7,410 nucleotides of DNA from Candidatus Auribacterota bacterium (GTDB lineage Bacteria; Auribacterota; JAFGBW01), in NCBI GenBank assembly GCA_016932965.1, contig JAFGBW010000010.1:1-7410 (forward strand). Direction: 5' to 3'. Shown here piece by piece: positions 3,993 to 7,272 of the stretch (positions are counted from its first letter, which is position 1; the number at the start of each line of letters is the position of its first letter). Position numbers and translations under genes: made by a program. The notes beneath the pieces are model-generated. The model was not told the DNA's origin. It saw nothing but the letters and a program-made list of their open reading frames with translations, and searched no databases.

Positions 3993-4030
3993 AACAATGG
4001 ATTGATATAAAAGTTAAAAAAATATCACTA

Positions 4031-4059
4031 ACTGTATAAATTTATATCTGCTCTTACAA
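4031..4059 (-). promoter_or_regulatory. Weak candidate promoter for the zinc-ribbon/dtd operon
   Basis: On the minus strand TTGTAA (4059-4054) and TACAGT (4036-4031) are 17 nt apart, each matching 4 of 6 consensus bases, about 38 nt before the ATG at 3992. The stretch is very AT-rich, so other start points are possible. Confidence 0.25.
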
Positions 4060-4450
4060 CTCTCAAATACTCAGTAAAAATATCATCTTACACCATAAAG
4101 GAAAGGCGCGAGAATCGAAAATTCGGAAAAAGACAGAAAAGAAGCATCAAATATCCTTATGTCATTCCAAAATCATGCAACGGAATAAACCACGTTTGAC
4201 ACCTCATAAATTTATTCTCTGTTGCCTCTATATTTATCTTAAAAAAACTCTCGATCCTCGTTTCTGAACAGGGAAAAAATAAGTTATTACGGGAACTTTT
4301 TCATTTTATTGTCAGATCATATTCTGTTTTTTACAAATTAACTGCTGTTTTTTATAGAAATTTATATTAAATGATATTATTTATGTACAAGATTAATCAT
4401 ATAAATAAACCTTCACATGCAATTCCAAACTCCCTAATTTGAGTGTTGCT

Positions 4451-4473
4451 GGAGGAATATGATAAATGAATAA
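4451..4473 (+). other. Strong Shine-Dalgarno with a four-codon mini-ORF
   Basis: GGAGG at 4451-4455 is the strongest Shine-Dalgarno in the intergenic region. It is followed by ATG at 4459 (ATG ATA AAT GAA TAA), with a second overlapping mini-ORF at 4466-4477. It may be a leader peptide, the scar of a lost gene, or chance purines. Confidence 0.3.
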
Positions 4474-4513
4474 ATAAACCACAAAGGACTCGAAAGGCGA
4501 GAAAATTATCATC

Positions 4514-4528
4514 CTGCTTGTCAAGCAG
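4514..4528. promoter_or_regulatory. 15-nt near-perfect palindrome, candidate operator
   Basis: CTGCTTG-T-CAAGCAG has perfectly matching 7-nt arms around one central base. This geometry suits a dimeric DNA-binding protein better than an RNA hairpin. It lies about 320 nt before the HPt-receiver gene, and no regulator gene is in the window. Confidence 0.35.
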
Positions 4529-4653
4529 ATAGAATGAATTTCAGATATCAAATCAGCCCTTCCGCTTGTTCTTTCCTTGGTGCTTCCTGTATCCTTCGGG
4601 GATTATATTTTATTAACCCTATATTGATAATAGATTGAATTTGACGATTGCAA

Positions 4654-4750
4654 CCCCTTTGCTTGCAACAGGGGAATTGGCCGAAAAAACAGCTTTGATG
4701 CATCCTTTTGAGCGAAGATGCCACTTCAAGCTCGCTTCAGAGAGCTTCAA
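4654..4750 (+). repeat. Dispersed hairpin repeat, copy 1
   Basis: This copy matches a second one at 7172-7265 in the same orientation. It begins with a hairpin: CCCCTTTG (4654-4661), loop CTTG, CAACAGGGG (4666-4674) with one bulged C. The 41-nt core at 4679-4719 runs from GGCCGAAAAAACAGC to AGCGAAGAT and differs from copy 2 by one A in a run and two A/G changes. A second hairpin, AAGCTC (4728-4733) with GAGCTT (4742-4747), closes the unit before the shared GCTTCAA end. TTGCAAC also occurs twice locally (4648-4654, 4663-4669). It ends 84 nt before the HPt-receiver start codon. It could be a mobile intergenic repeat or a structured RNA. Confidence 0.75.
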
Positions 4751-4834
4751 ACCTGTTGAAATGCCACCCATAATAAATTGTGAGCCAGTCATCGTACAAA
4801 CCATGAAACTTTGCCAGAGGTAACTAATAAATCG

Positions 4835-7087: not shown

Positions 7088-7171
7088 GACGGATAGATGA
7101 TTACTGAATTGATGATAGAAAACCCATACTGAAACAAACCATAAAACAAAATGAATTCACCGGCCCCACCT

Positions 7172-7265
7172 CCCTTTTGACTACAAAGGGGAAAAGGCCG
7201 AAAAACAGCTTTGATGCGTCCTTTTAAGCGAAGATTCCCCTAAAGTAAGCTTACGGGGGCTTCAA
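7172..7265 (+). repeat. Dispersed hairpin repeat, copy 2
   Basis: Second copy of the unit at 4654-4750. The first hairpin is CCCTTTTG (7172-7179), loop ACTA, CAAAGGGG (7184-7191): eight pairs including one T-G wobble, with a stem that differs from copy 1 yet still pairs. The core at 7196-7235 (40 nt, GGCCGAAAAACAGC to AGCGAAGAT) matches copy 1 except for one missing A and two A/G changes. The distal part pairs GAAG (7230-7233) with CTTC (7260-7263), and TCCCC (7236-7240) with GGGGG (7255-7259). It lies between the DUF6941-like gene and tRNA-Leu. Confidence 0.75.
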
Positions 7266-7272
7266 TTATTCA

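Follow-up and report, generated by a model that had tools for sequence, protein, structure and literature searches.

The window, a stretch of 7,410 nucleotides from the draft genome of a Candidatus Auribacterota bacterium, carries two copies of a small repeat in noncoding DNA. Copy 1 is located upstream of an HPt-receiver gene and copy 2 ~50 bp upstream of tRNA-Leu(GAG), both on the plus strand. Copy 1 forms only the last part of a region of ~800 bp (4000-4830) upstream of the HPt-receiver gene that has no predicted gene. The copies and their parts are as follows:

4635..4751, plus strand: copy 1 at full length (116-117 nt), upstream of the HPt-receiver gene; R1 sequence profile, 86.3 bits, E 2.7e-24; ends taken from the terminus positions
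4635..4641, plus strand: 5' terminus of copy 1, TTGAATT, inverted relative to the 3' terminus (sequence; base frequencies at the ends)
4654..4674, plus strand: hairpin 1 of copy 1, CCCCTTTG-CTTG-CAACAGGGG, with one C bulge (sequence, fold)
4680..4719, plus strand: conserved linker of copy 1 (sequence; conservation across copies)
4717..4751, plus strand: hairpin 2 of copy 1, decayed, with the 3' terminus GCTTCAAA (sequence, alignment)
7151..7266, plus strand: copy 2 at full length (115-116 nt), ~50 bp upstream of tRNA-Leu(GAG); R1 profile, 78.6 bits, E 6.3e-22; blastn to copy 1
7171..7192, plus strand: hairpin 1 of copy 2, CCCTTTTGACTACAAAGGGG, in a slipped register (sequence, fold)
7197..7236, plus strand: conserved linker of copy 2 (sequence)
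7233..7266, plus strand: hairpin 2 of copy 2 with the 3' terminus GGCTTCAAT (sequence, fold)

The two copies match each other in blastn with E = 2e-13, and therefore their likeness is not a matter of chance. The first-pass annotation had described a nearly identical core, and this is indeed what is found: gccgaaaaaacagctttgatgcatccttttgagcgaagat (~4680-4719) and gccgaaaaacagctttgatgcgtccttttaagcgaagat (~7197-7236) are identical but for one A indel and two A/G changes. The repeat as such was correctly recognized, but its extent was not, since the termini TGAAT.../...CTTCAA give a longer element that spans 4635-4751 and 7151-7266. Likewise, two hairpins can indeed be drawn for each copy, yet the differing first stem does not hold up as a compensatory change; the C-G stem pairs vary independently across copies, and the register of copy 2 is slipped. 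Taken singly, neither window copy folds better than shuffled sequence (z = -0.73 for copy 1 and -1.13 for copy 2). It is near certain that both sequences represent one and the same dispersed DNA element.

Copy number and anatomy of the element

The host genome is a draft of 3.14 Mb in 300 contigs and is 93% complete. With copy 1 as the query, blastn gave 26 matches in this genome, ~18 of which were convincing. A profile (R1) was built from 17 blastn matches; it describes sequence only, since RNAalifold yielded no consensus pairs, and it gave 59 matches at E <=1 and 52 at E 0.001. Reading of the matches one by one left ~50 real copies, ~40 of them full length, a copy number that rests on search matches and may be slightly low. 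The earlier suggestion of a genome-wide, dispersed REP/MITE-like element is thus confirmed by the blastn and profile searches. A pattern search gave 63 matches compared to 4 in the control. Its extra head-like matches look like chance, except for one copy of 48 nt (L080), and a tail-like match on contig C234 looks like chance as well.

Nearly all copies are located outside predicted genes, as called with a simple codon model made for the purpose. The flanking genes are convergent in 13 cases, divergent in 11, and co-directional in 17, and no preference of the element strand with respect to the neighboring genes was found. A few copies are near tRNA genes, the nearest being copy 2 of the window and L055. 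The median pairwise identity among the copies is 0.63, and their tree is star-like, with terminal branches of 9.70 compared to internal branches of 1.18.

Between its sharp, inversely repeated ends, the element, which is ~114 bp (~115) long, contains a conserved linker and two hairpins, each with a CTTG loop. Its consensus, [A/T]TGAATTCGCCGGCCGCAAACCCCTTTGCTTGCAGCGGGGTTAGGCCGAACAAACAGTTGCGAAGCATCCTTTTGAGCGGAGATTCCCTAAAGCTTGCTTTAGGGAACTTCAAT, has a G+C content of ~48% and runs from [A/T]TGAATTC to ACTTCAAT. The terminal sequences, [A/T]TGAATTC at the 5' end and CTTCAAT at the 3' end, are inverted repeats of ~6 bases, in which the per-base conservation is 94-100% over TGAA and 91-97% over TTCAAT. 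In terms of majority frequency, the two termini score 0.93 and 0.84, compared to 0.79 for the linker core and 0.68-0.81 for the arms and loops. The flanks are near-random and A+T-rich, and A or T precedes the 5' end in 83% of the copies. With terminal inverted repeats ([A/T]TGAA...TTCAAT) in the range of 4-30 bp, 87% of whose terminal cells pair, and with multiple dispersed copies of a unit of <500 bp, the element has two of the features of bacterial MITEs.

Some copies deviate in size. Three of them (L071, L075, and L076) are 48-nt forms with both ends intact, and L080, measured by eye, is a fourth. If the hairpin-1 loop GCTTGC of the consensus is joined to the hairpin-2 loop GCTTGC, exactly 48 nt result, and a deletion between these six-base repeats would explain L071, L075, and L076 well. 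L072 contains a 71-nt form, and in L029 one element directly abuts the end of another (...TTTCAATTCGCC...). L066 and L068 have a common extra stretch, AATTCTCGATTCCCAAT, past the usual 3' end of the element. The flanks of L050 and L076 share ATTCTG[A/G]CTCCTGAATT, perhaps a second small repeat family.

None of the 43 other genomes of the phylum carries the element (44 were searched, and the sample has two others of the same order); this absence holds for the sampled relatives and does not imply restriction to the species. A degenerate 23-nt core, which is a strict pattern, had one match in the GTDB genomes, a search from which records near the host may be excluded; this match, in a Schlesneria MAG (L077), comprises only 26 nt and is attributed to chance. 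There was no match in viral contigs and phages, and a plasmid match of only 21 nt is also a chance hit. Rfam gave no match at the gathering score except for tRNA, and the matches to CRISPR-DR57 (E 2.3) and Ms_IGR-8 (E 5.4) are ascribed to chance.

Copies inside genes

One copy (L036; G000:C112, locus 1326-1447) lies in frame within glgB, a gene with the Pfam alpha-amylase and C-terminal domains. Residues ~501-538 of the product (P0001), IEAPLTQLQETSVRKDASQLFFQPDSAAGKEVYGRQIQ, are encoded by the element. The solved GlgB 5gqw aligns on either side of the insert and skips the insert itself. Furthermore, a search with GlgB gave 8 matches, 61-67% identical, from six further genomes of this phylum, and their alignments stop at residues 497-505, that is, at the insert. 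All seven GlgB homologues recovered from the phylum are without the insert, with a net difference of 36 residues. The net insertion in glgB is thus 36 codons and not 38, a mismatch that weighs somewhat against the reading proposed below and implies either the loss of some target bases or a different ancestral loop.

A second in-frame copy (L040; G000:C97, locus 1501-1618) is present in an anti-sigma-like zf-HC2 protein, to which it contributes the peptide GISDRKDASQLSVRPAPAAGEGVYSRRIQ. Both copies are read on the minus strand of the element and in the same frame, resulting in the common peptide RKDASQLxxRPxxAAG. A search with the peptide revealed three long stop-free frames across the element, of 694 aa (C112), 450 aa (C97), and 681 aa (C70). 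In the third, the element (L062/L134; G000:C70, ~11820-11930) is at the start of a helicase-like frame. It has no in-frame ATG, GTG, or TTG inside, and a TTG that may serve as the start codon is located four codons before it; the element might therefore encode the N terminus of the helicase. That the copies agree in frame may mean no more than that this frame happens to be open in many of them. Judging from their intact frames only, the coding insertions are presumably translated.

Fusions of this kind have precedents. Rickettsia palindromic elements, 105-150 bp in length, are the foremost case of in-frame fusions, which have also been described for bacterial MITEs, elements with terminal inverted repeats and, usually, target-site duplications and TA ends (PMC2229807, PMC10969869). 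Our element resembles the Rickettsia palindromic elements in this size range, its palindromic makeup, its short terminal inverted repeats, and its dispersal, and also in the presence of some copies, with a shared peptide, in frame in conserved protein genes (PMC2229807, PMC10969869). However, nearly half of the Rickettsia palindromic elements are located in genes in Rickettsia conorii, compared to 2 (perhaps 3) of ~50 here, and one long stem-loop there contrasts with two separate hairpins here.

Probable past mobility and origin of the hairpins

In our reading, which we regard as likely, the repeat is an old, decayed, formerly mobile, and non-autonomous MITE-like palindromic element of ~114 bp. 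A trans-acting enzyme that recognized the ends and/or the hairpins would formerly have copied or moved it. This enzyme, probably a transposase that has been lost, might now be absent, belong to another family, or be encoded in an unassembled part of the genome, and since then the copies would have undergone neutral decay. Many copies have one open frame on the minus strand, and an insertion that hit a permissive loop of a protein could therefore persist as an added peptide, as is the case for the Rickettsia palindromic elements.

The search for a mobilizing enzyme covered four families (Y1, DDE_1, rve, and IS110-type). The best Y1_Tnp match in the 93%-complete assembly reached 12.8 bits and thus stayed below the cut-off of 23, and neither DDE_Tnp_1 nor rve had a significant match in the genome. 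One IS110-type transposase gene is present (L079; G000:C140:2163-2402), and its locus contains no element sequence. Target-site duplications were not observed either: no offset or length tested gave more than 1-2 matching flanks, although the copies are old and duplications may have decayed. With the transposases negative and the IS110-type locus free of the element, it is only from the distribution of the copies that we infer past mobility, namely, from how many unrelated sites are occupied, from the sharpness of the ends, and from the insertion in glgB.

Like the bacterial MITEs ERIC, RUP, and Correia/NEMIS, the element is shorter than 200 bp, has short terminal inverted repeats, is mostly intergenic, occurs in many copies, and is foldable if transcribed (PMC2229807). 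Unlike them, it has no target-site duplication, no terminal 5'-TA-3', and no partner insertion sequence that we could find, and with ~48% G+C it is not A+T-rich. The pneumococcal BOX elements are modular (PMC3049150), and the hairpin modules between conserved ends and the size variants of our element are reminiscent of them (PMC3049150). However, it has no repeated middle module, and its variation in size fits an internal deletion, as in the 48-nt form, rather than module number. We would place the element in a new family of small palindromic dispersed repeats, which as a kind are already known.

Of the other explanations, a REP/BIME/REPIN-type element mobilized by a RAYT (TnpA-REP), a Y1 tyrosine transposase, fares best, and even this we consider improbable. 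As in REP/REPIN sequences, the copies are extragenic palindromes without an obvious target-site duplication, and TTGAA precedes both palindromic units on the outer side. However, the assembly contains no Y1_Tnp domain above the cut-off, there is no GTAG/CGTC-like tag, solitary palindromes next to such a tetranucleotide do not occur, and the repeated unit is the whole 114 bp instead of single palindromes of 20-40 bp.

The first-pass annotation had also considered a structured RNA family. Such a family, be it a small RNA or a cis-regulatory leader present in many copies with its stems kept by selection, is very unlikely. Its two hairpins do appear in the consensus, for which good folding is obtained on either strand (z -2.88 and -3.18). 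In single copies, folding barely surpasses that of shuffled sequence (mean z of -0.92 and -1.12 in 43 copies), RNAalifold found no consensus pairs among the copies, and the covariation over the 28 named pairs was equalled in 125/500 shuffles. Closer inspection of the C-G stem pairs revealed 50 single changes to T-G compared to 37 to C-A (hand-summed; p 0.20), and thus no clear G-U preference on the plus strand, where selection on an RNA would tolerate only one of the two per strand. A double change to T-A was seen in 7 cells, with 7-8 expected under independent change (by hand). The lack of an orientation bias and of an Rfam match likewise speaks against an RNA.

Only locally did the test for compensatory changes turn out otherwise, with a weak signal in the inner second stem. 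The five innermost pairs of hairpin 2 stand above the shuffles (Watson-Crick, 1/2000), and mutual information there reached 9/200 against a tree-based null that is home-made and rough. In hairpin 1, the same rough null was exceeded by the Watson-Crick cells (191 versus 154; 0/200) but not by mutual information. The inner arms of hairpin 2 fall into the types TAAAG/CTTTA, TGCAG/CTGCA, and AAAAG/CTTTT; a small number of founder variants may be responsible for this, or else template-switch repair of palindromes. We read the element as having been born palindromic and having decayed since. That the window merely holds two unrelated hairpins alike by chance has a negligible probability, given the blastn E value, the ~50 copies in the genome, and the 63 pattern matches compared to 4 in the control.

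In sum, the repeat looks like selfish DNA rather than a functional RNA, and seemingly compensatory stem differences between two copies can be plain decay, which calls for caution in RNA discovery by eye. A more far-reaching view of our MITE-like element, as an independent protein-invading palindromic element in another phylum that spread without the common transposase types and seeded a fixed peptide of ~38 residues into conserved enzymes, is conceivable, but we hold it to be rather doubtful. In any case, the copy in glgB provides an example beyond Rickettsia of a small palindromic repeat that appears as an extra peptide in an intact-looking enzyme gene, and whether such repeats contribute to the origin of new protein sequence is a question that could be taken up in another lineage.
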